Positions 2 through 23,958 of a stretch of DNA of 26,838 bases are shown here, one piece after another. The notes under the pieces were generated by a model. It did not search any database, was not told the DNA's origin, and worked only from the letters and a program-made list of their open reading frames with translations. Made by a program: the position numbers and the translations under genes. Origin of the DNA: a virus; IMG/VR virus record IMGVR_UViG_3300009176_000069, positions 1 through 26,838 of that record. The stretch is one strand, 5' to 3'. Each line of letters starts with the position of its first letter. Position 1 is the first letter of the stretch.

Positions 2-97
2 GCCGTCGCCGTCGCCGTCGCCGTAGCCGTAGCCGTAGCCGTAGCCGTAGCCGTAGCCGTCGCCGTCGCCGTAGCCGTAGCCGTAGCCGTAGCCGTC
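2..97. repeat. Hexanucleotide tandem repeat GCCGTM (16 units)
   Basis: Sixteen head-to-tail 6-bp units of two kinds alternate in blocks: GCCGTC x3, GCCGTA x6, GCCGTC x2, GCCGTA x4, GCCGTC x1. The array starts at the window edge, so its true length is unknown. It lies just downstream of the stop codon (103-105) of the minus-strand gene at 103-411. All three minus frames and two of the three plus frames are open through it. In the plus frame reading Ala-Val and the minus frame reading Thr-Ala the C/A difference is synonymous; in another minus frame it gives Gly-Tyr/Gly-Asp. It may be a microsatellite or an assembly-edge effect. Confidence 0.9.
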
Positions 98-8111: not shown

Positions 8112-8405
8112 CTACTCCTTAAAAAGTCGTCGGCCGGACGGTTTTCTGGTCAGCCTGTAGACCGCTGGTTTTCTGCCAGTGGCAGGCTTCAGCAGGATCA
8201 TTTCTCCTAAGTCCTCAATAATGCGCGCTATGCACTCCCGGCATCTGCGCTCCTGTAGCCCTGTATGTTGTGAGATCCACGTCAACGACACAGAGAGCGT
8301 TCCATCTGGCGAACAGGACGACGCCATAGCGAGCAATAGTAGGCGCTCTGATGGCCTGGCTTCGCTATTGGCCAGCACATACCTCGGCCATGACTCTGCC
8401 CTCAT
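8112..8405 (-). CDS. Winged-helix protein, replication-initiator-like (97 aa)
   Basis: A compact DNA-binding domain typical of phage replication or early regulators: ARPSERLLLLAMASSCSPDGTLSVSLTWISQHTGL is a helix followed by the HTH, then a recognition helix (QERRCRECIARIIEDLG), and a wing (MILLKPATGRKPAVYRL). It ends soon after the wing, so it is one domain only; full replication proteins of this type usually carry a further DnaC/DnaA-contact region. The start at 8405 gives an ATGA overlap with the upstream stop (8402-8404). The iteron-like repeats begin right behind its stop, which supports an origin-binding role by position. Confidence 0.65.
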   Translation of the reverse strand: MRAESWPRYVLANSEARPSERLLLLAMASSCSPDGTLSVSLTWISQHTGLQERRCRECIARIIEDLGEMILLKPATGRKPAVYRLTRKPSGRRLFKE

Positions 8406-8605
8406 GTGCCACACCTCGGGCACGGCTCTTCTTGCAGCGTGATCGAGTTGCGGTATGGCCTACCTCGGCAGGTAGCGCAGATGTCATCCCAGCGCTTCTG
8501 TGGGTATGTGGCGTAGCCCTTTTTCGCGCGATGCGAATGGGCTGGTGTCATTCTAGGGGGTTGACTTCGGGGCACGAAGCCCTCAGGTTGGCGTCGTTGT
8601 TTCAT
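8402..8605 (-). CDS. Small zinc-finger protein (up to 67 aa)
   Basis: The C-terminus carries a CxxC...CxxC zinc site: CATCRGRPYRNSITLQEEPCPRCG. The N-terminal third is basic and proline-rich and looks less conserved. The ATG at 8551 (MTPAHSHRAK, giving 49 residues) may be the real start: a small hairpin (8565-8579) and an A/C-rich spacer precede it, as at other genes here. The first ATG in frame is at 8605. It is translationally coupled to the winged-helix gene by ATGA. Its function is unknown; a small DnaJ-like or single-stranded-DNA-binding zinc finger is possible. Confidence 0.55.
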   Translation of the reverse strand: MKQRRQPEGFVPRSQPPRMTPAHSHRAKKGYATYPQKRWDDICATCRGRPYRNSITLQEEPCPRCGT

Positions 8606-8970: not shown

Positions 8971-9211
8971 ATCAATGAACAACCTGTGTCTCTGGAATGT
9001 CACCTTCAAGAGCGAAACTGAAAACCCGTCCCAGGAGGATCGCTTCAGGAAGATTCAGAATGCGGAGCGAACGGTTTGGCTGACCACTTCAGAGGAAACC
9101 ATCGACTCAGTTCGACTTGCGATTCAGGAAGGGCTCTACGTGAAACACGGCCCTGGAACCAATCTCACCGAGCTAGTCCGGTGCGGATACCACGGCACGC
9201 TTTTCAACTGA
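8966..9211 (+). CDS. Hypothetical protein (81 aa)
   Basis: Unrecognised soluble protein. It starts MPSMNNLCLWNVTFKSETENP; an ATG at 8975 is an equally good start. Later features are a VWLTTSEETIDSVRLAIQEGL helix-strand unit and a C-terminal VRCGYHGTLF strand. The ATG at 8966 lies inside the perfect inverted repeat GGCATG-CCAA-CATGCC (8955-8970), which could mask or mark the start. Its 3' end overlaps the convergent glycosyltransferase (9173-9772) by 39 bp. Confidence 0.6.
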   Translation: MPSMNNLCLWNVTFKSETENPSQEDRFRKIQNAERTVWLTTSEETIDSVRLAIQEGLYVKHGPGTNLTELVRCGYHGTLFN

Positions 9212-9772
9212 AATCGTTTTGACGAACTCCTCGATCAAGTGCTTCTGACCGCCCGCGAAATGCCGGAGCTTGGCCGGTCCCTCGAACATCCGGTTGAATT
9301 CCATAGGTATCTTCTGCACCACGATTCTCTCCCGGTGGATGGCCAGATTCACGATAGCCTGATCCTTCATGGGCAAGATCGGTCGCCCGAAATCTCGCAC
9401 CGTACGCCGCAGCTTTTCGACATCCTCCGGGCTCCATCCCATCACGCCGGAGTTGTAGAATACCGAGCCGCGCGGAACGTGAACTCGGCATTCCCTCGCC
9501 CACCGGTGGAACCAATCGGGACAGGTCGGGCATCCTTCATCCGTGGCCATGCAGGTGCCTTTCAGCGTTTCAAGATCATCGTCGGTGATGGCGTCGAGCA
9601 CCGGAGCCACGTCGGCGTCGAGCACTAGACCACCTTGGCATGCAGCGTTTAGCTTGGTCCAGTGATCGCCACTCAGAGCCCGGAACCGGCATCCCATCCG
9701 ACGCGCCAGTTCGCGGTGAAGCGGAACGGTGAGATGGGCGTAGTGGGTTGATGCGACCGTGTGGAGTGTCAT
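9173..9772 (-). CDS. Glycosyltransferase, GT-A fold (GT8-like, 199 aa)
   Basis: A predicted nucleotide-sugar transferase. The metal-binding DxD is at GLVLDADVAPVL (D52-A-D54). Next come FYNSGVMGWSPED (105-117), the 'NsGvm' element common to GT8-type enzymes, then PMKDQAIVNLAI (134-145) and EFNRMFEGPAKLRHFAGGQKH, where the late His would complete the metal site. It is shorter than typical GT8 enzymes (about 300 residues), as phage versions often are. The start codon at 9772 begins on the last base of the CCA of the tRNA-like element (9772-9917), leaving no conventional leader. The sugar donor and acceptor cannot be read from sequence. Confidence 0.75.
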   Translation of the reverse strand: MTLHTVASTHYAHLTVPLHRELARRMGCRFRALSGDHWTKLNAACQGGLVLDADVAPVLDAITDDDLETLKGTCMATDEGCPTCPDWFHRWARECRVHVPRGSVFYNSGVMGWSPEDVEKLRRTVRDFGRPILPMKDQAIVNLAIHRERIVVQKIPMEFNRMFEGPAKLRHFAGGQKHLIEEFVKTISVEKRAVVSAPD

Positions 9773-9917
9773 GGTACCGAAGGTGGGATTTGAACCTACA
9801 GTTGATCTGCCCTGTCTGCTGCGCGCATATCAGCGGGAATTACCCTTTCGTTTCACGCGCAGAGTGACATGGCCAGTATCATAATCAGGGTGCGTTTTTA
9901 CATTTCGCTACTTCGGC
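9772..9917 (-). tRNA. tRNA-like element with normal 3' half and expanded middle
   Basis: Minus strand. The 3' half is textbook: T arm GTAGG-TTCAAAT-CCCAC (one mismatch), acceptor CTTCGGT, discriminator A and encoded CCA (9772-9774). A matching 5' acceptor, GCCGAAG (9917-9911, one G.U pair), is followed by TA, a 3-bp D-like stem GCG/CGC and A, as in a tRNA. CCCTG (9890-9886) can pair with CAGGG (9814-9810) as an anticodon stem, but 71 nt lie between them, including a 9-bp hairpin (9854-9862 with 9819-9827). The D loop lacks the usual GG. Options: a tRNA with a very short intron, a decayed tRNA, a chance 5' match beside an attP-type tRNA 3' end, or another tRNA-like RNA. Confidence 0.45.
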
Positions 9918-10895: not shown

Positions 10896-11762
10896 ATGCC
10901 TCCGACGCCGATCTTCAATCCTAGGTCCGAACTGTTCCGAGTCACGTCTCTAACCGAAGAGAACTGCTATCCCATCATGCAGTGGGCAATGCCGATTATC
11001 GCGCAGGAAGAGTATCCGGGATTCGACGGGATTGGGGTAGTGATTGTCGCGGGAGGGAAGTACCTCAAATATGCTTTTGGGGCCGTTACCAAACTTCGAC
11101 AACTCGACCCTGACATCCCTGTGCAAATCTGGCATCTGCCGGGAGAAAATATTTCGGGTCAGACGCGATTCGATCGATTCGGAAATGTTACCTTCCACGA
11201 CATCGGACCAGTCTGGAATCATGAATGCAGTTGGGTCAGAACAGGATGGAGCGCGAAGATGTTCGCCGTGAAGGCGTGTAGCTTTCGGCATGTGCATGTA
11301 ATAGATGCTGACTGTATTCCTCTTCATCCGCCGATGCGTTACTTTGATTCTGAAGAATACGGTACGACTGGGATGATTCTTTTTCCAGACATTCTGGATC
11401 ACAACAAGGGCGCTCTGTGGCCTTGTGTCGGACTGAAGTATAAATCGGTTCCAGAACACGAAAGCGGACAGCAATTCATCGACAAGAAGCGTGCATGGGA
11501 AGCAATAAAGCTTGGGTGCTGGATGGGATCGCATCATTTGTTTCACGACATGGCGCTGGGGGACAAGAACCTCTTTGGATTGGCATGCGCCAAGCTCGGA
11601 ATACCATTTTTCACCGCTCCCGCTTCGATAAATGAGCCGTGGGGCATAACTCAGAACTGGATTGACGGCAAACCCGCCTTCATGCATGTCATGCACCCCA
11701 AGAGATCGGCTGCAATCGCGCCAAAAGAGGTTCAAAGACTCTGGAATTCTTATGAAGCTTGA
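10896..11762 (+). CDS. Glycosyltransferase, GT71-like mannosyltransferase type (288 aa)
   Basis: Resembles the GT-A enzymes of the MNN1/GT71 group. It has GVVIVAGGKYLKYAFGAV (47-64) at the sugar-nucleotide strand, IPVQIWHLPGE (74-84), then GWSAKMFAVKACSFRHVHVIDADCIPL (117-143) with a DAD metal motif at 137-139. Further on are a GSHHLFHDMALGDKNLF region and a late HVMHPKRS metal-site His. It would transfer a sugar from a nucleotide donor; donor and acceptor are unknown. AGAGGAAG (10883-10890) gives a good ribosome site, and the previous stop abuts the ATG. The stop overlaps a TTG codon of the next ORF. Confidence 0.7.
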   Translation: MPPTPIFNPRSELFRVTSLTEENCYPIMQWAMPIIAQEEYPGFDGIGVVIVAGGKYLKYAFGAVTKLRQLDPDIPVQIWHLPGENISGQTRFDRFGNVTFHDIGPVWNHECSWVRTGWSAKMFAVKACSFRHVHVIDADCIPLHPPMRYFDSEEYGTTGMILFPDILDHNKGALWPCVGLKYKSVPEHESGQQFIDKKRAWEAIKLGCWMGSHHLFHDMALGDKNLFGLACAKLGIPFFTAPASINEPWGITQNWIDGKPAFMHVMHPKRSAAIAPKEVQRLWNSYEA

Positions 11763-13230: not shown

Positions 13231-13790
13231 GCTACGTCGCTACCCGCGAAGGCGTCTCCAACCGTGGCCGCCCTCCTGAATCGTTTCTGGATCAACTGAT
13301 TACGTGGGGAAAGACCGCGCCAGATGAAATCTTCCAGTGGATGCCCGACGCTGACCGGCCCGATGATGTTTATAGCCACGTTTTCGGCACGCTTGGACCC
13401 TACACTGCGGGTGTGAACCGCAAGGCCGTCATGCTCGAAATCATGCGAGTACTGGCAGGTTTCGAATCAAGCTGGAACTGGAACGAGGGCCGCGATACAA
13501 ACAATCCGAGCAGCAACCAGCCCGACACCACGGAGGCGGGAGCGTGGCAAGTCTCGGCAAACTCGATGGCGTTCGGAGATGAGTTGAAAGAACTCGTGCA
13601 GAATCGCGTCGGAAGCACGCATGGTCTCGACTTCCAAAGTGCCATGAAACGCGATCACACCCTGGCGATGGAATACATCGCTCGTTTGCTGCGCCGAACC
13701 ACGCGCCACAACGGACCTGTGCAACGTCACGAAATAGACAAGTATCTCAGCCGCGAATCCGTGAAGGAGTTCGAATCGTTTCTCACCTAG
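13227..13790 (+). CDS. Endolysin, lysozyme-superfamily muralytic enzyme (187 aa)
   Basis: A predicted peptidoglycan glycosidase with a lysozyme-like fold. The likely catalytic Glu is E80 in VLAGFESSWNWNEGRD; it is followed by the EAGAWQVSANSM motif (103-114), corresponding to the conserved 'GxxQ' strand of goose-type and transglycosylase enzymes, then the helix MEYIARLLRRTTRHNGPV. There is no signal peptide, so it would need a holin. The start at 13227 overlaps the previous stop as ATGA; an ATG two codons earlier is possible. Its last 8 bp overlap tail-to-tail with the large terminase gene on the other strand. Confidence 0.8.
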   Translation: MSYVATREGVSNRGRPPESFLDQLITWGKTAPDEIFQWMPDADRPDDVYSHVFGTLGPYTAGVNRKAVMLEIMRVLAGFESSWNWNEGRDTNNPSSNQPDTTEAGAWQVSANSMAFGDELKELVQNRVGSTHGLDFQSAMKRDHTLAMEYIARLLRRTTRHNGPVQRHEIDKYLSRESVKEFESFLT

Positions 13791-15612
13791 GAGCGTACGA
13801 CCTTCGCGACTGATACTGCGACCCGTAGGAGTTACGTTGTTGAATCGGTCTGTCTGGCCAGTCGTCAATCTCGTGACTCGTGGTTGAGTCTTGCATTCCG
13901 CGAGATGGTGACAGACCAGCCTTGCGTGCAGCTACGTGGCAAAGCGCTCTGGCATCGGCGTGGTCGGGAGAACGCTTGATTCTTTTTTTCATATCTTCCT
14001 TCTTTTCCACTTTGAACTTTCGCTTCTCATCCTGAATCACGCGCCTTTCACAGAACTGTTTGCAGACGTTAGAGCTTATGTTGAATCCACGAATTAGTCG
14101 ATTCTGAACAGCTAACCTATAGCTATACCAAAGTTCTGTAACCTTTCGGTCGAAGAGTTCTTTTGCAGGAACCAAGGTGCCGTCTCCACGGTCATAGTTT
14201 TCTTCGGATGGCGAACCGCCAAAGTCCACGGCGATTATCTCGATGTTATATCCCTGTAATTTAGCTTCTTCGCGTATCGCTAGAGCCATCGTTCCACCGC
14301 CGCCGCTGATGTCGAGCGCAACCAAGTGGCATTGACGATTCTCGCACTCCTGAATAAATCGTTGCGCGATTTGCTTTTCGTACGGAAGTTCGCTGGTCAT
14401 GTTTTGCGGAAGCGCAACCGCATCTTCCTCCTCTGCTAGAATGATTTGACCGTCGATTGATTTTCCAACGATAGCGAAGCTTGAGCAGCACGGGTCGCCG
14501 TCCTTCTTCAACCCTAGGTCAAGTCCTGCCACGGTCTTCTTGTCTGGATTTGGCCCCCAGATAGGCTGATCGTTTGCACCAAAAGCCTCAATTATCTTCA
14601 CCGTCAAAACTCGGTCGTTGATCTCACCCTTCTTCGGGAATGCCTTCCACCAACGCCAGAACTGCGGCCCATTTTCAATGCCGTCCATTGAGACGAGTGT
14701 CTTGCGGTACTCCCGCGTCGATAGCATCGGAAAAGGAACAGGTTCGTCTTCAGGCGCTTTGAGGTTCGGGCTTTTATCGCCATCGAAATAAATGCAAACA
14801 CCTAGGCGAGTAGGCCACGATGTTCTTTCAGATAGCCCTGGTGTGTCCCACCCCTTCTCGAATCCGGGTCCGAACGGCTCTGCATCCTGATACATCGGAT
14901 CTCCCTCCTCTGGTTTGTTTGAGCAACCAAAGAACTGAAATGACCTATTGGCAGCAAGGTTACCTCTTGCGGTCTGAATAGCGTTGCCGTCCATGTGGCC
15001 TAGCTCGTCGCAAAGCCAAATCACGTTGTGATTCTTACGACCTTGTATTTCGCCGATGGCCTTCTCTCCTTCGGAGCCTTTCGGTAGCGCGACAGCGATG
15101 ATGGAGTTTTCCATCAATCTGTCTTTGTCGTTTTTGTCTTCCTGAAGAACAATCGCGTCTTTGTAGTCCAGCCGCATACCGATCTTGTACCTGTCAAGGG
15201 TGTGCATTTTTTTCATGATGCCCCACGCGCGCTGCTGGAGGGCATCACGGCTGGTGCTGCTCACGATTCCGCTAGTGCACCATGCGTTAGCCTTCCACGC
15301 GGTATCTAGGTACGCAGCGAATCCCATGCTCTTGCCAGAGGAGGCTGCTCCGATTGCCCACACGAACCGATTTCTGCATGCTACGCGGACGATTCTCTTG
15401 AACCAATAATTGTCGTATCCATTTGCCTCCAATACTAACCAATCTCCCCACTGCATCCGCATGCAATTCAGGGCGAAAATGTGCTTCGATGGATGCCCTA
15501 TCGGAAGGTTTCTAAAGCACGAAATTTCCGTCTCATATTCATTCGCATTCCCCAAAGCTTTCGCCATCGCTTCACGGTATGCGTCGGGCGTAGTGAGAAC
15601 GGTTTCAGCCAC
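13783..15612 (-). CDS. terL: Large terminase subunit
   Basis: A 609-residue packaging motor with both domains. ATPase: Walker A GAASSGKS (88-95), Walker B VIWLCDE with catalytic Glu (197-203), and a coupling-type segment FGCSNKPEEGDP (228-239). RNase H-fold nuclease: AGLDLG (362-367), VALDISGGGG (431-440) and SPDHADA (548-554), supplying the acidic metal ligands. The C-terminal 45 residues are Ser/Tyr/Gln-rich and disordered. It starts with GTG at 15612, overlapping the preceding gene by 8 bp. It faces away from the portal, and glycosyltransferase genes separate the two, an unusual order. Confidence 0.93.
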   Translation of the reverse strand: MAETVLTTPDAYREAMAKALGNANEYETEISCFRNLPIGHPSKHIFALNCMRMQWGDWLVLEANGYDNYWFKRIVRVACRNRFVWAIGAASSGKSMGFAAYLDTAWKANAWCTSGIVSSTSRDALQQRAWGIMKKMHTLDRYKIGMRLDYKDAIVLQEDKNDKDRLMENSIIAVALPKGSEGEKAIGEIQGRKNHNVIWLCDELGHMDGNAIQTARGNLAANRSFQFFGCSNKPEEGDPMYQDAEPFGPGFEKGWDTPGLSERTSWPTRLGVCIYFDGDKSPNLKAPEDEPVPFPMLSTREYRKTLVSMDGIENGPQFWRWWKAFPKKGEINDRVLTVKIIEAFGANDQPIWGPNPDKKTVAGLDLGLKKDGDPCCSSFAIVGKSIDGQIILAEEEDAVALPQNMTSELPYEKQIAQRFIQECENRQCHLVALDISGGGGTMALAIREEAKLQGYNIEIIAVDFGGSPSEENYDRGDGTLVPAKELFDRKVTELWYSYRLAVQNRLIRGFNISSNVCKQFCERRVIQDEKRKFKVEKKEDMKKRIKRSPDHADARALCHVAARKAGLSPSRGMQDSTTSHEIDDWPDRPIQQRNSYGSQYQSRRSYAPR

Positions 15613-17272: not shown

Positions 17273-18106
17273 TCACCTAAGCCGCCGAACCCATTCCGCG
17301 ACTTTGCCGAGATCCTCTTCCGAAAGAGGCCACTTCAGGTATAGATTGCCTTCTTCACCAACGCCCCAATACCAACTCCATTGTGACAAACCCCTCTGAA
17401 CAAGGTCAAAAGTCTGGTCTTCCCGATACAGGACCACTGTCGGAATCCCCATCATCGCCGCGATGTAAGTCACGGCTGACTCGCTTCCAATCACTCCTTT
17501 TGCGTGCATCAGAGTGCTTGCGAGCGATAGCGGATGCAGTTGAGCGCCTTGCTCTTGGCCGTGGCCTTCGCGCTGAAACGAAGCCCCCACCTCTAGGGTT
17601 GTGGTGTTACGAAACTCGGCACGCATTTCGTCCAGAAAGGAAGTATCAATGGCACGCATTTGTGCACCGGCTCCCAGGTGAAACACGAAATCCACCGTTG
17701 GAAACTCCATCTTCGGAAGGTCCATCCGCATCGTATTGCTGGCAATCCACTCGACCTCACCATGTGGCGTCCGCAGAGGATCAAATTCCTCTGAATAGGT
17801 CGAACGTCTGTCCTGAACGTGAAAACGCAATTCCTTCCCGGCAAGAAGTTCTGGATAGCGTTCATAAAACACTTCCCACGACTTCTCCGTATCCGTTGGG
17901 AACGGAACCTGAATCACTTCGTCAATCCACGGCTGGTAGTCAAGTAACTGACGGGAACTAGGATTATGCGACATCAACACTACCCGAAGCGAATCTTGGC
18001 GATGCAGGAGTTTCCATCGTTTCAGGATTCCAAGCGCGTTGTGCCTCCAGCATTCGCGCCACAAGTCACCGAGTCCACCTCCAGAAACGTAATGCGAGTA
18101 TTTCAT
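17273..18106 (-). CDS. Glycosyltransferase, GT9 (heptosyltransferase-like, GT-B fold)
   Basis: A 277-residue protein resembling ADP-heptose:LPS heptosyltransferases. SGGGLGDLWREC (8-19) is the N-terminal nucleotide loop, FVFHLGAGAQMRA (140-152) corresponds to the 'h.GA' strand of the second Rossmann domain, and HAKGVIGSESAVTYIAAMMGIPTVVLYR (201-228) is the typical donor-binding block. It is shorter than bacterial homologues (about 350 residues), mostly in the N-terminal domain. It would add a sugar to a glycan acceptor. Its start codon is 2 bp from the divergent start at 18109, and its promoter lies inside that gene. Confidence 0.75.
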   Translation of the reverse strand: MKYSHYVSGGGLGDLWRECWRHNALGILKRWKLLHRQDSLRVVLMSHNPSSRQLLDYQPWIDEVIQVPFPTDTEKSWEVFYERYPELLAGKELRFHVQDRRSTYSEEFDPLRTPHGEVEWIASNTMRMDLPKMEFPTVDFVFHLGAGAQMRAIDTSFLDEMRAEFRNTTTLEVGASFQREGHGQEQGAQLHPLSLASTLMHAKGVIGSESAVTYIAAMMGIPTVVLYREDQTFDLVQRGLSQWSWYWGVGEEGNLYLKWPLSEEDLGKVAEWVRRLR

Positions 18107-18108
18107 TC

Positions 18109-18837
18109 ATGATTCCAGCACTAGCCACAGCTTATGTCAACCGCCCTGATTTGCTGAACAGGATGTTGTCCAGTGTGGATGCGCCATGCGAGCATCTACT
18201 GGTTGTGAACAACAGCGGAAAACCGCTGCCTCAAACGCGACCAATAGAAGAGTTGTCGCTCGGTGTGAATCTGGGATGCGCGGGCGCATGGAATATGATT
18301 CTGGATCGCGCGTTCAACCAACTCAATTTGCCATGGGTGCTGATTTGCGGCTCGGATATTGAGTGGCAGCCAGGAGACCTGAATACATTTGAGAAGACGG
18401 TGAATGATTTTCCTGAAGCGAGCTTTTTGAATGGCCCTTTGGCGTTTAATCACTTCGTAATTTGCCGTGCTTGTTGGGAAAAGATCGGTGCTTTCTGGGA
18501 GGAGTCATACCCTGCTTTTCTGGAAGACAGCGACTACTGGCAACGCATAAGACGATGCGCAATCAAGGTCGCGGGAGCAGAGGGCTTGTGGACTAAGCAC
18601 GAAGGCAGCGCTAGCCTTAAAGCAGGAGATGAGGAATTTCGATCATTCGTTCGTCAGAGGCACCAGCGAACATGGAGTAAATACGCAGCCAAGTGGGGGT
18701 GTCCTGAATGGAGTAGCGGGCTAGAGACTTTCGCGACTCCATTCAACGAAGGCGGTCCCATAAACGCTTGGAAGCTTTCACCTGAGCGCATGAACGAGCC
18801 TCACTACTACACGGAGAATCCAATTGTCACATGCTGA
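18109..18837 (+). CDS. Glycosyltransferase, GT2-like (242 aa)
   Basis: A GT-A fold transferase. It opens with the usual strand and helix (PALATAYVNRPDLLNRMLSSV), then LLVVNNSG (30-37), NLGCAGAWNMILDRA (54-68), the 'N.G.agA.N.gl..a' block of GT2 enzymes, then the metal site ICGSDIEWQPGD (79-90, SDI in place of the usual DDD) and FLEDSDYWQRI (137-147), the ED acceptor/base motif. It is shorter than most GT2 proteins and lacks membrane helices, so it is cytoplasmic. The stop overlaps the next start by 7 bp (ATGCTGA). Confidence 0.8.
   Translation: MIPALATAYVNRPDLLNRMLSSVDAPCEHLLVVNNSGKPLPQTRPIEELSLGVNLGCAGAWNMILDRAFNQLNLPWVLICGSDIEWQPGDLNTFEKTVNDFPEASFLNGPLAFNHFVICRACWEKIGAFWEESYPAFLEDSDYWQRIRRCAIKVAGAEGLWTKHEGSASLKAGDEEFRSFVRQRHQRTWSKYAAKWGCPEWSSGLETFATPFNEGGPINAWKLSPERMNEPHYYTENPIVTC
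18112..18140 (-). promoter_or_regulatory. Sigma70-like promoter inside the divergent gene
   Basis: Minus strand: TTGACA (18140-18135, perfect), a 17-bp spacer, TGGAAT (18117-18112, 4/6), five bases, then the ATG at 18106. Transcription would begin at or next to the start codon. The whole promoter lies within codons 2-11 of the plus-strand glycosyltransferase at 18109. Confidence 0.6.
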
Positions 18838-19622
18838 TTGAAGTATGGATTCCAGCAATCGGCAACGTGGAAATGTTGCAAGAGTGCATAACTCGTCTGA
18901 TCGAGAATTCTGCACTTCACCAGCATGGCAAACTGGATGTTTACGTGATAGACAACGGAAGCGAGTCTCCGATTGAGTTCGCCCGACTCCGAAACGAGAA
19001 GAACGTCGGCATGGTCGAAGCGTTAGCACAGGCAAAGGCGAATTCTTCAGCGGACATTCTGGTTTATCAACACTCCGATTTCAGGGTGCACGAAAAGGGG
19101 TGGGACGTGAAGATTCGGGACTATTTCATCGCGGACCCAAAGCTTGGTCTTGTTGGAGCTATGGGTGCACAGCAGGCGGACACCAACGGAGGCAGGTCTA
19201 ACTGCTACTGCGCCTTCGATGGTAGCGTTCATGGCCATCCTTGTCCGAAAGGCATCACTCCCGTGGTACTGCTTGACGGCTGTTTCCTTTGCTTCCGAAG
19301 GGCCGCAATGTTCTCTGCCGGAATACCAGAGCTTCCCTTCCCGGTTCACCACTTCCACGATAAACACTGGTCCATGCAGATGGTGAATTCGGGATGGCGG
19401 GTAGGTGTGACTGACCTGAATTGCGCCCATTTGAGCGGCCAAACCTCGTGTCAACCTGAGTGCCAAAAGTCGTTCGAACCCGAAGGTGGTGAGCAGGCAA
19501 TCTACAATGCCGCAGAACGCCAGTACATCGACCGATGGAAATCCATGTTTCCTGTGACCGTGGACCATGACTGGAACTACCGCACTGCCGCCGGTCCAAT
19601 CTTCTGCTCAACCGCACCATGA
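18831..19622 (+). CDS. Glycosyltransferase, GT2-like (263 aa)
   Basis: A second GT2-type enzyme: IEVWIPAIGNVEMLQECITRLIEN, then VYVIDNGSESP (37-47), NVGMVEALAQAKANSSADILVYQHSDFRVHEKGW (58-91) with HSD in place of DxD, then LVGAMGAQQAD, VVLLDGCFLCFRRAAM (a 'dg.....rr' acceptor-site strand) and FHDKHWSMQMVNSGWRVGV, where the family's ED/HD base is expected. The C-terminal third has several Cys and His and is less typical. It differs enough from its neighbour that the two probably add different sugars or linkages. It is coupled to the genes on both sides. Confidence 0.8.
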   Translation: MLIEVWIPAIGNVEMLQECITRLIENSALHQHGKLDVYVIDNGSESPIEFARLRNEKNVGMVEALAQAKANSSADILVYQHSDFRVHEKGWDVKIRDYFIADPKLGLVGAMGAQQADTNGGRSNCYCAFDGSVHGHPCPKGITPVVLLDGCFLCFRRAAMFSAGIPELPFPVHHFHDKHWSMQMVNSGWRVGVTDLNCAHLSGQTSCQPECQKSFEPEGGEQAIYNAAERQYIDRWKSMFPVTVDHDWNYRTAAGPIFCSTAP

Positions 19623-20143
19623 AATTCGACATCACACAGTTAAACTCGGCGACTAAAGGATTAGAGTCGTTCCTAAAGTTCATAGTTCAGGTGAAGCGCC
19701 CTGAAATTACCGTGGAACTTGGGGTAGACGAGGGCTATTCACTATTCAATATCGCCCTTCCTGAAATCGGACTAGTGTACGGCGTGGATGACTTCAACGG
19801 CTCGTTCCACATGGGAAAGGGGCATGAGAAGAAGCTTCGCATCGAACAGAACGCGCTGCCAAACATGCGCCTTATTGACCGTGACTTTCGTTCGGCGTCG
19901 GTGGAGTGGAGTGGAGGATCCGTCCAACTGCTATTCATAGACGGCAACCACGATTACGACGACGTGCGCGAGTGTTGGGAGGATTGGATTCAGTTTGTGC
20001 CGGTCGGAGGCATCATTCTATTCCACGACACCAGAAGCTACCCAGACGGTGCTGGCCGATTCTTCCGAGAGCGTTGCGCCGAATATCCAAACTACGAGAT
20101 CGAGCATTCACACGGACTCGGCGTGATCGTCAAAGACAAATGA
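19619..20143 (+). CDS. Class I SAM-dependent methyltransferase (174 aa)
   Basis: A Rossmann-fold methyltransferase of the Methyltransf_24 kind, often found in glycan and antibiotic clusters. Motif I is VELGVDEGYS (32-41), the acidic ribose-binding end is YGVDDF (54-59), and LLFIDGNHDYDDVRECWEDW (104-123) is the signature of this group, followed by GGIILFHDTRS (130-140). The usual N-terminal cap is short. It sits between glycosyltransferases with an ATGA overlap on each side, suggesting that it methylates the same glycan (for example O-methyl capping). The acceptor is unknown. Confidence 0.8.
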   Translation: MKFDITQLNSATKGLESFLKFIVQVKRPEITVELGVDEGYSLFNIALPEIGLVYGVDDFNGSFHMGKGHEKKLRIEQNALPNMRLIDRDFRSASVEWSGGSVQLLFIDGNHDYDDVRECWEDWIQFVPVGGIILFHDTRSYPDGAGRFFRERCAEYPNYEIEHSHGLGVIVKDK

Positions 20144-20778
20144 TCGAGCGAAAAATATTCACATGTTGGTTGGGTGGACAGCCGCCAGAGCGTATCCGAA
20201 AGCTCATAGACGATGCGCGCAGGATAAACGAGAAGGCCGGATGGAAGTACACATTCTACGGCAAGGAAGTGCTCGACCGTTATCAGGCTGATCCGTACGT
20301 GAAGCTGCTGCTCCAAAAGGGCGAGAAAATCGCGTTCGTGGTGGATCGAATTCGGCTCTTACTGGCGCGTGACGAGGGAGGATTCTGGGTGGATGCTGAT
20401 GCACAGTTCATCAAGTCGATGGCGCTACTGAATGTGGTGTGCGAGCGGCCAGATGTGGACTTCATCACGGGGCTTCGTAATCCGTGGCGTCCGCATCTTG
20501 GAATTGGACGTGGAATCCCCCTGGTAGACAATACGGCATTTGGAAGCGCCAAGGGTGGTCAAATGGTGAAGCGGATTCTCGACCTCTACAAACCTGAGAC
20601 GCCAAAGCAGACCGGACAGACGTTCGGCATGGAGGTACTTCGCACGGCAGACCAAAACACTGTGCTGTTGAATTTCAGGTATTTCTACGCTATGAACGAT
20701 CAGATTTCTCCTGAGACGATCATTTTGCATGACCAGTCGAACCTACATTCGTGGAAGGATGAACTACCAAAAATCTGA
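20140..20778 (+). CDS. Glycosyltransferase with DxD (GT32-like, 212 aa)
   Basis: Resembles the 'Gly_transf_sug'/capsular polysaccharide type: KIFTCWLGGQPPERI at the start, FVVDRIRLLLARDEGGFWVDADAQFI (66-91) with a typical 'sD..R...L...GG.y.D.D' core and DAD metal motif at 85-87, then VDNTAFGSAKGGQMVKRIL, which matches the later 'n...a...hp....l' block. The start at 20140 gives ATGA with the methyltransferase; a longer reading from 19906 is a shadow of it. It completes the glycan block. The stop shares a base with the next start (TGATG). Confidence 0.75.
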   Translation: MIERKIFTCWLGGQPPERIRKLIDDARRINEKAGWKYTFYGKEVLDRYQADPYVKLLLQKGEKIAFVVDRIRLLLARDEGGFWVDADAQFIKSMALLNVVCERPDVDFITGLRNPWRPHLGIGRGIPLVDNTAFGSAKGGQMVKRILDLYKPETPKQTGQTFGMEVLRTADQNTVLLNFRYFYAMNDQISPETIILHDQSNLHSWKDELPKI

Positions 20779-21083: not shown

Positions 21084-21361
21084 AACTCTTTCCACTGATG
21101 ATTCTGAATGCTCTTGTGATAATTGGAGTCCACAAGGCGACCAGAGTCGGTGAAGTAGGGGAGCCCATTGCGCGCAAACTGGATGATCCCGACTGGCTGC
21201 GAAAGCCCACCATTGGCTGTATGCCATGTATGCCTAGTGTCTGGGGAACACTCGTGTTTTGGACCATCGGGCCGCGCAACTGGCTTCTGTGGCCGTTTTA
21301 CGTGCTCGCTTTGAGCGGCCTTATGAGGTTTGTTGTGCAGATCGACCATAAATTGAAATGA
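21056..21361 (+). CDS. Membrane protein before portal (101 aa)
   Basis: A predicted integral membrane protein with hydrophobic segments at about residues 9-27 (ILKLFPLMILNALVIIGVH) and 60-97 (one or two helices around SVWGTLVFWTIGPRNWLLWPFYVLALSGL), and a GCMPCMP motif between them. An ATG at 21065 has GGAGA nine bases upstream and may be the true start. The stop overlaps the portal start as ATGA. The location directly before the portal gene is odd for a membrane protein; a holin role is possible. Confidence 0.6.
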   Translation: MLVMRETILKLFPLMILNALVIIGVHKATRVGEVGEPIARKLDDPDWLRKPTIGCMPCMPSVWGTLVFWTIGPRNWLLWPFYVLALSGLMRFVVQIDHKLK

Positions 21362-23958
21362 GCACCGAACTTGCCGTAGCCCCCAACACGGACCTCGCAT
21401 CAGGTCATCAACCCGCAACTATCTCCGCGAAGGGCAAGCCGCCAAAGGCAAGGTTTACGACCGCTCAAGGGCTCTGGTCCTGTTACCAGCAATCCCTTCA
21501 GGAAAGCCTCAAGAACGATCTTCGGCTCACTGACATTCGCTCTCTGTACGACGGGATGCGGCTCGAACTGGATACGATCTCCAACCAGCAATGCGGCAAC
21601 GCGGGCGAGCTTCCGAACATCAATCTGCGCAAGTTCGGAGCGAAGATTAAGACCTACGTTGGTAATTTCACCCAACTGGACTGTGGGGCGGATTTCATCG
21701 CGGATGTGCGGGTGAAGATGAAGTATTGCAAGAGCCCGACCGAAAAGACGCTCTGGGAACAGCAACTCACAGGGTTCTTTTCCGAGGCGTTCGCCGAATG
21801 GGACCCGGACTGCAACTCGATGGCCCAATACGTGATGGAATCGACGGTTCGGAACATTCAGATGGCCCTGTTCGGAATCGGTTGCGCCTTCTTCCGTGAT
21901 CAGTGGGATTGGCGCTTCATAGCGGTGCCGACGCGCTCCGTTAGGGTGCCGAATGGTACGAAGATCAGTCTTCGGAACCATTCGATGATGTTCGTCAACA
22001 AGACCTACACTGCCACCGAGTTGTGGGATAAACGGAAGTGCGACGGCTGGAACGAGCAGGTGATCATCGAATTCCTCTACAACCACTTAGGTGAAGGTGA
22101 TGTTGGGCTCGGTGGTGAGCGAATGACGCTGGCAGCGTGGCAAAACTGGCTTCGCAACAACGAGACTTATTACCAGCGTGATTTCCGACAAATCTACCTT
22201 GTGCACGGCTACGTGCAGGAGTTCAACGAGTACCGGGAACAGAACGGTGTCAGCCAATACGTGATTGACGAGTACATGCAGACCGCCTCGTTCCTGTACC
22301 AGAAGGAGCGGGAATATGCGTCGATCTCGAATGTACTGATTCCGTTTGCCGATGATCCTTCTCCAGAGGGCGATTGGCACGGCGTCAAAGGCTACGGCGA
22401 CGAACTGTACGACCTGTGTCATTTCCAGAATCTCTACTGGAACCACATGGCCACGATGGCGCTGATCAGCAGCACGCCGATGTGGCAGGGTGCCACGCAG
22501 GACGACCGAAACCGGCTCTCGCAGATCGTCTGGAGTCGGCTCGGTATGTTGGCCCCAAACTTACAACTCGTTCAGGTCAAGTTGAACGTGGATCTCGGTG
22601 GATGCGCTACGATCTTTGAGGCATCTGACCGTATCCTGAACGAAATCAGCCGCACCTATCCGGTGGGTGATACCGTGGACGCCAAGACCAAGACCGCCAC
22701 GCAAGAGACCTTTGACCGGCAGGATGAGAGTCAGATGACCGGTCTTCAACTCCTGGTTTACCGCACAAACGGACTCTATCGACTCTTCACGGAGATGTAC
22801 CGGCGCGTGACCCGAAAAGGGTATCCCGACCGCTGGCCTGGAGGTAAGGCCGCACAGAACTTCAGGGATAAGTGCAAGGCTGTCGGGATTCCGCCTGAGT
22901 GCTACACGGACCCGCAGAGCGTACGGGCAACCCGTAAGGGTGGCAGCGGCAACAACGCGCTCGATGCTCAGAAAGCGCTTGGAATCCTCAAGGTTGCCAC
23001 TCCCGGCCAAGGTCAGGCCAATGCCAAGAAGCTTTTCATTGCCTCCACTGCCGGATGGGATCAGGTTACGGCATACTATCAGGATGTACCGCCGCAAGAC
23101 TCCGACGACGAGGCAATTACGCTGGAGAACGCCCTGTTCGGCCTTGGGCAACTTACGACCGCTCAGAGCTACCAGAACCACCAGAAGCACCTTGGTACTC
23201 CAGACCCGCAAGGACCGGGGCATCTGAGCCTTATATCTGCCTCTCGGATGGCGGCGATGCAGCTTCAACAGCAAGGCGTCAAGAACCACTTGGAAGACGC
23301 GCAGCGGCTCTCCCGTACGATGGACGCCACGGTTCGGCATTGCGCGGAGCACATGCAATATATGGGACAGCTTTTGGCCTTCAACGATGACCCGGACCTG
23401 AAGACGATGGTCAAGGAACTGAATCAGGTTATCACCGTGTTCACGAAGTTCGCCACGGAGTTCGACCGTACGGTTGCGAAGGCAGCGCAGGAACAACAGC
23501 AGCAAGCCCCGCAGATGGCGGTGGAAGACCAGATCAAACTCGACAAGTGGAACGTCGAGAAACAAATCATGCTGCAAAAGGCGCAGATGGAGCTTCAGAT
23601 TCACGAGGCGTCCCAGAAGCTCAAGCTTGGCCAGATCGCAGAGCGCAGCATGGCCAAGATGCACGTCAGCGAGCAGGAGCACCTACAGAAGCTTGGAAAC
23701 ATGGGAGAGGCGACTCTTACCGAGAACCAAATCTCACGAACCCAAGCTGCCGTCGATGCCGCCGCGCAGATCCAGCAAAACCTCCAATCCACCCATCACA
23801 ATGCCGTCGCCAACGCCCAGGAACTTGCGCAAACGTCTCAGCAACACGAGCAGGAAATGCAGCAGTCCCAAGCGGAGCACGAACAAAACATCGCCCAAAC
23901 CAGAGCGGAACATAATGTCAAACTTGAACAGCAATCCCCAGAGCCTACCGGAGAGTGA
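21358..23958 (+). CDS. Portal protein (head-tail connector), 866 aa
   Basis: A large podovirus-type portal, predicted to form the dodecameric ring through which DNA is packaged. Recognisable parts: an N-terminal wing (residues about 30-330), the stem/clip region around YDLCHFQNLYWNHMATMALISSTPMWQG, and the crown region with TYPVGDTVDAKTKTATQETFDRQDESQMTGLQLLVYRTNGLYRLFTEMYRRV. The last 180 residues or so are Gln/His/Glu-rich coiled coil (for example QQQQQAPQMAVEDQIKL) and form an extended barrel or tail. Most short-tailed portals are 500-750 residues, so this is long. It directly precedes the scaffold-type protein as expected. Confidence 0.85.
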   Translation: MSTELAVAPNTDLASGHQPATISAKGKPPKARFTTAQGLWSCYQQSLQESLKNDLRLTDIRSLYDGMRLELDTISNQQCGNAGELPNINLRKFGAKIKTYVGNFTQLDCGADFIADVRVKMKYCKSPTEKTLWEQQLTGFFSEAFAEWDPDCNSMAQYVMESTVRNIQMALFGIGCAFFRDQWDWRFIAVPTRSVRVPNGTKISLRNHSMMFVNKTYTATELWDKRKCDGWNEQVIIEFLYNHLGEGDVGLGGERMTLAAWQNWLRNNETYYQRDFRQIYLVHGYVQEFNEYREQNGVSQYVIDEYMQTASFLYQKEREYASISNVLIPFADDPSPEGDWHGVKGYGDELYDLCHFQNLYWNHMATMALISSTPMWQGATQDDRNRLSQIVWSRLGMLAPNLQLVQVKLNVDLGGCATIFEASDRILNEISRTYPVGDTVDAKTKTATQETFDRQDESQMTGLQLLVYRTNGLYRLFTEMYRRVTRKGYPDRWPGGKAAQNFRDKCKAVGIPPECYTDPQSVRATRKGGSGNNALDAQKALGILKVATPGQGQANAKKLFIASTAGWDQVTAYYQDVPPQDSDDEAITLENALFGLGQLTTAQSYQNHQKHLGTPDPQGPGHLSLISASRMAAMQLQQQGVKNHLEDAQRLSRTMDATVRHCAEHMQYMGQLLAFNDDPDLKTMVKELNQVITVFTKFATEFDRTVAKAAQEQQQQAPQMAVEDQIKLDKWNVEKQIMLQKAQMELQIHEASQKLKLGQIAERSMAKMHVSEQEHLQKLGNMGEATLTENQISRTQAAVDAAAQIQQNLQSTHHNAVANAQELAQTSQQHEQEMQQSQAEHEQNIAQTRAEHNVKLEQQSPEPTGE

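Follow-up and report, generated by a model that had tools for sequence, protein, structure and literature searches.

The closest described counterparts of the locus reported here are phage cassettes in which glycosyltransferase (GT) and methyltransferase (MTase) genes lie together. In the cluster O mycobacteriophages (Corndog gp35-38, Firecracker 33-36, Catdawg 33-36), an O-methyltransferase and GTs are encoded by genes whose ends overlap, within the region that spans terminase, portal, protease and capsid. The order in Firecracker and Catdawg is portal, O-methyltransferase, three further open reading frames (ORFs), protease and capsid, and two of those three ORFs in Firecracker and all three in Catdawg are annotated as sugar transferases. 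The authors describing cluster O suggested a capsid-modifying role for these enzymes (PMC4351075). In addition, PMC12363180, PMC11256854 and PMC11652166 report glycosylated virion (capsid or tail) proteins for Che8, Corndog and Myrna, and PMC12363180 and PMC11256854 cite Freeman 2023 for virion glycosylation.

Further cassettes occur in the Pontimonas phage phiPsal1 (gp10-12), with the order capsid-GT1-MTase-GT2-neck, and in the Synechococcus phage S-CBS4 (gp14-16), in which a terminase on the minus strand is followed by portal-GT1-GT2-MTase on the plus strand. The methyltransferases of S-CBS4 and phiPsal1 are 53% identical across a cyanobacterial and an actinobacterial host, which suggests that such cassettes move between phages. 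The glycosyltransferases of pelagic myophages (pelagimyophages) have been read as modifiers of the host O-chain (PMC7029224).

Gene content and layout of the viral fragment

The DNA analysed here, hereafter the window, comprises all 26,838 bases of the virus record IMGVR_UViG_3300009176_000069, in which an earlier note had described a phage-borne glycan module at 17273-20778. The open frames that it listed are all present. Four of the five cluster genes, encoding GT2a, GT2b, a methyltransferase and a GT32-type enzyme, are consecutive plus-strand frames (18109-20778) with ends overlapping by 1-7 bp (junctions at 18831/18837, 19619/19622, 20140/20143 and 20778) and, judging by these overlaps, are probably co-expressed. 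The overlap had been claimed for all five genes, but the GT9-like gene lies on the minus strand, head-to-head with GT2a, with start codons 2 bp apart (window 18104-18111), so that any divergent promoters must sit within the coding sequence of the other gene; around 18104-18111, promoter-like sites did not rise above chance level.

The cluster had further been placed between a terminase and a portal gene. The former holds, as the large subunit of the terminase is encoded at 13783..15612 on the minus strand (phrog_2, E 1.1e-12), while the latter, a plus-strand ORF of 866 aa at 21358..23958, is portal-like in position and size only and has no match in any database or profile collection searched. 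A YqaJ exonuclease and an ERF annealing protein are encoded in the minus-strand block on the left side of the window, and no capsid or tail gene was identifiable within the 26.8-kb fragment. Queries with the terminase, portal, GT2b, GT71, GT9 and GT8 sequences returned no close relatives of the phage, the terminase matches in IMG/VR being only about 30% identical.

Several other features of the fragment were recorded. A GCCGTA array of about 16 units (window 2-96) lies at the extreme contig end and is perhaps the reason why the assembly stopped there. ORFs at 978-1325 and 8112-8423, both on the minus strand, weakly matched a Lar-like restriction alleviation protein and replication initiation proteins. 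At 9775-9917 on the minus strand, a candidate interrupted tRNA-Ile(UAU) scored 30.9 bits with the Rfam tRNA model against a cut-off of 29 and was found by ARAGORN only with introns allowed; it has a 7-bp acceptor stem, a T stem with one mismatch, an encoded CCA end and, at anticodon-loop position 38/39, an insert of 64 nt. This insert is below the size of a group I intron, and the candidate may be a pseudo-tRNA or a chance match.

Family assignment is firm for GT2b, the methyltransferase, GT32 and GT71, good for GT2a, weak for the GT9-like enzyme and by motif only for the GT8-like ORF. GT2a (18109..18837, plus strand) is a soluble GT2-type glycosyltransferase of a family found beside phage capsid genes; it matches phrog_29879 'galactosyl transferase' at E 2.2e-15 and PF00535 at 15.7 bits only, and keeps the NLG, D83, ED.D and H164 motifs in alignment with its relatives. 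GT2b (18831..19622, plus strand) is likewise GT2-type, with two matches over cut-off, to PF13712 (E 2.5e-9) and to PF00535 (E 2.1e-6), and with DN, H.D, DG and HH..D kept. Its relatives were found in only three viral contigs (L128, L155 and L149), all originally fetched via their methyltransferase, and a scan of bacterial genomes with the GT2b alignment gave no matches.

The Methyltransf_24-type SAM-dependent methyltransferase (19619..20143, plus strand; PF13578, E 1.1e-15) keeps D57, DG.H.Y and D137 in its relatives, as well as E33 and H136 in a second alignment (terminal HD). The enzyme is probably an O-methyltransferase. A PDB sequence search with it returned mostly plant-type O-methyltransferases. 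The GT32/Caps_synth-type glycosyltransferase (20140..20778, plus strand; PF05704, E 1.2e-5, over cut-off) keeps D..R, EGG and D.D; a mechanically called GTG start at 19906 was rejected, since it overruns the methyltransferase and the homologues align from the ATG at 20140. The GT32 match MT835535 (L081, 'Bacteriophage sp.') appears to hold a bacterial locus of the capsule/exopolysaccharide type, which encodes many glycosyltransferases as well as acyltransferase-like membrane proteins. The GenBank record is probably mislabelled as phage, and the match was dropped as phage evidence.

Thus, loss of catalytic residues in most of the cluster enzymes, which the earlier note had named as a counter-indication, is not what the alignments of GT2a, GT2b, the methyltransferase and GT32 with their relatives reveal, and the catalytic motifs of these three phage-encoded glycosyltransferases are conserved. 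The 'four fold types' that had been counted reduce to two folds (GT-A and GT-B).

The remaining glycosyltransferases are less uniform. The probable GT9-like (GT-B) enzyme of 277 aa (17273..18106, minus strand) carries the sequence GGGLGD and, towards its C terminus, a GT9-like motif; it scores 14.1 bits against PF01075, under the cut-off of 22 (E 3.5e-4 when its own record alone is searched), and 13.1 bits against heptosyltransferase I over the same residues, and no relatives were found in our searches. Two extra glycosyltransferases had also been reported, at 10896-11762 and 9173-9772. The one at 10896..11762 (plus strand) is confirmed as GT71/Mannosyl_trans3-type by PF11051 (E 9e-24) and reads DADC directly in the sequence, while the ORF at 9173..9772 (minus strand) shows the GT8-type motifs LDADV, FYNSGVM, DQAIVN and HFAGGQKHL and is unmatched in Pfam (PF01501 included), PHROGs and NCBIfam. 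Neither has relatives in the phage or viral collections searched, and both genes sit 5.5-9 kb from the cluster. Given this distance and lack of phage relatives, and given the opposite strand and weak assignment of the GT9-like gene, the proposal of a single six-glycosyltransferase pathway was not upheld. Matches of the GT9-like, GT8-like and GT32 sequences in the PDB were at chance level and were discarded, and single-sequence structure predictions of the GT9-like (mean pLDDT 36) and GT8-like (32) proteins were not used.

Grouping of relatives with each other and with head genes

The GT2a family was surveyed in 50 sampled records holding a GT2a relative. An HK97-type capsid gene (PF05065) is present in 29 of the 50, always on the same strand as the GT2a relative (29/29) and mostly close to it (26/29 within 5 kb, median 1.8 kb); most of these records represent one phiPsal1-type lineage and are hence not independent. 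A GT1-type gene lies between the capsid gene and GT2a in most of the capsid-holding records, and Methyltransf_24 occurs in only 6/50 of the whole sample. The survey also brought up a widespread group of uncultured phiPsal1-related phages (L077, L172, L175, L202, L212, L221, L228, L237, L238 and similar loci) with the mostly near-fixed order terminase-portal-capsid-GT1-(MTase or epimerase-like gene)-GT2.

Among 49 sampled records holding a relative of the methyltransferase, 33 have a PF00535 match, 28 of them within 3 kb, although some records are near-copies and the counts therefore overstate independence. In a comparison set of 38 records fetched by distant terminase similarity, PF00535 was matched in two, neither over cut-off. 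The co-occurrence of GT2 and methyltransferase genes is more than chance. In L155, the GT2b and methyltransferase relatives are adjacent with a 4-bp overlap, the same as in the window, and in L149 the GT2b and methyltransferase relatives, together with one of GT2a, lie upstream of the terminase and portal genes. L128 has the order portal (PF04860, E 8.5e-24), unknown, SU10-type capsid (PF17236, E 7.9e-13), short ORF, GT2b, C-methyltransferase, epimerase-like ORF (called by eye, with no family search) and GT2, followed by the methyltransferase, a GT2a-like gene, another glycosyltransferase, a short ORF and a virion protein. Far from being single, scattered genes, relatives of GT2a, GT2b and the methyltransferase are thus grouped in other viral contigs, and the idea of a phage-borne glycan module is supported by these co-occurring relatives and their tie to head genes.

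Acceptor of the putative glycan

Taken together, we regard a module for virion-protein glycosylation and methylation as the best explanation of the cluster, and a reasonably probable one. The evidence leans towards virion proteins as the acceptor, the main clue being the capsid proximity of the GT2a family; relatives of GT2a, GT2b and the methyltransferase lie near head genes in other viral contigs. In addition, all seven enzymes lack transmembrane stretches and hence probably work in the cytoplasm, where they could reach virion proteins. In the window, the cluster itself lies close to the terminase gene.

The main rival is modification of the host surface, in which a surface polysaccharide would be altered (e.g. 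LPS or O-antigen capped or extended, and methylated) to block superinfection, as in serotype conversion. The GT9, GT32/Caps_synth and GT2 families are generally known to serve bacterial surface polysaccharides in many cases. The sole GT32 database match among phage records is the capsule-type locus L081, and the authors of PMC7029224 favour a host-surface role for the pelagimyophage enzymes. We nevertheless consider this somewhat unlikely, as the enzymes lack transmembrane stretches, the ORFs searched include neither an integrase nor the gtrABC features of serotype conversion (a membrane flippase GtrA paired with a membrane-anchored GtrB GT2), and the relatives of GT2a lie beside capsid genes. 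It is rather improbable that each enzyme was acquired on its own as an accessory function with a role apart from the others, which would make the cluster a cargo hot spot and not one pathway: the strand switch at GT9, the distant GT8 and GT71 genes and a GT/methyltransferase combination that differs from relative to relative would fit such an origin, but the plus-strand frames overlap and groups of GT2b and methyltransferase, in part with GT2a, recur. Glycosylation of modified bases in phage DNA, as generally known from the glycosyltransferases of T-even phages, is very improbable, given that no enzyme of the fragment matches the DNA glucosyltransferase families and the relatives are positioned with head genes. 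The earlier remark that no hydroxymethyl-nucleotide enzyme is encoded agrees with our searches of about 40 ORFs of this fragment (Pfam, partly PHROGs), which revealed neither a hydroxymethylase nor any other base-modification enzyme.

Virion-protein modification, as we infer it with respect to co-expression, activities, transfer order, methylated sugar and acceptor, would proceed late in infection. Host nucleotide sugars would then serve the soluble glycosyltransferases as donors for a short glycan on a virion protein encoded in the same gene region, with a capsid or other head protein as the likeliest target, and the Methyltransf_24 enzyme would O-methylate one sugar of this glycan. The GT9-like enzyme might contribute from the divergent terminase-side unit, and GT71 and the GT8-like enzyme may or may not belong. 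A methyl-capped oligosaccharide is a plausible product, because in the cyanophage S-SRM01 a GT2-like domain is joined to a methyltransferase of the same family (QPX48312, whose Methyltransf_24-type domain is 34% identical to the window methyltransferase). It is unlikely that as many as six glycosyltransferases of five families serve an uncultured, highly divergent lineage of tailed phages to assemble a methylated glycan of unusual length on its own particle; for the GT71- and GT9-type enzymes that this would include, no phage relative was found in our searches.

Comparison with described cassettes

The S-SRM01 counterpart differs from the window in being one fused protein, encoded by a phage of 240 kb in the neighbourhood of epimerase and sulfotransferase genes. 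Counterparts also exist in phiPsal1, whose GT2 is homologous to GT2a (32% identity) and which carries a methyltransferase and another glycosyltransferase directly after the capsid gene, and in S-CBS4, which shares the minus-strand terminase and plus-strand GT genes, a GT2 homologous to GT2a (28%) and a methyltransferase that follows. However, both have a methyltransferase of another family; phiPsal1 has a GT1 partner and belongs to another phage lineage, while in S-CBS4 a GT1 takes the place of GT2b and GT32 and the cassette lies after, not before, the portal gene. Apart from GT2a, the window genes have no blastp-level homology to S-CBS4 or phiPsal1 genes.

The cluster O cassette likewise has overlapping genes, whereas the window cluster comprises five genes, one on the opposite strand. 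The window enzymes gave no blastp match to the Firecracker set at E<=0.05, and the parallel is therefore one of arrangement only; by sequence, the cluster lies outside the Corndog gene lineage and is the same kind of cassette only.

With the window, the few phages that carry glycan cassettes within or close to their particle genes gain one independent and divergent example, and the link of the GT2a family to capsid genes across many uncultured phages makes virion glycosylation testable far beyond the mycobacteriophages. Its cassette probably works like those of the mycobacteriophages and of S-CBS4 and phiPsal1. As such cassettes are already known from other phages, the window is a distinctive, not an unprecedented, example.
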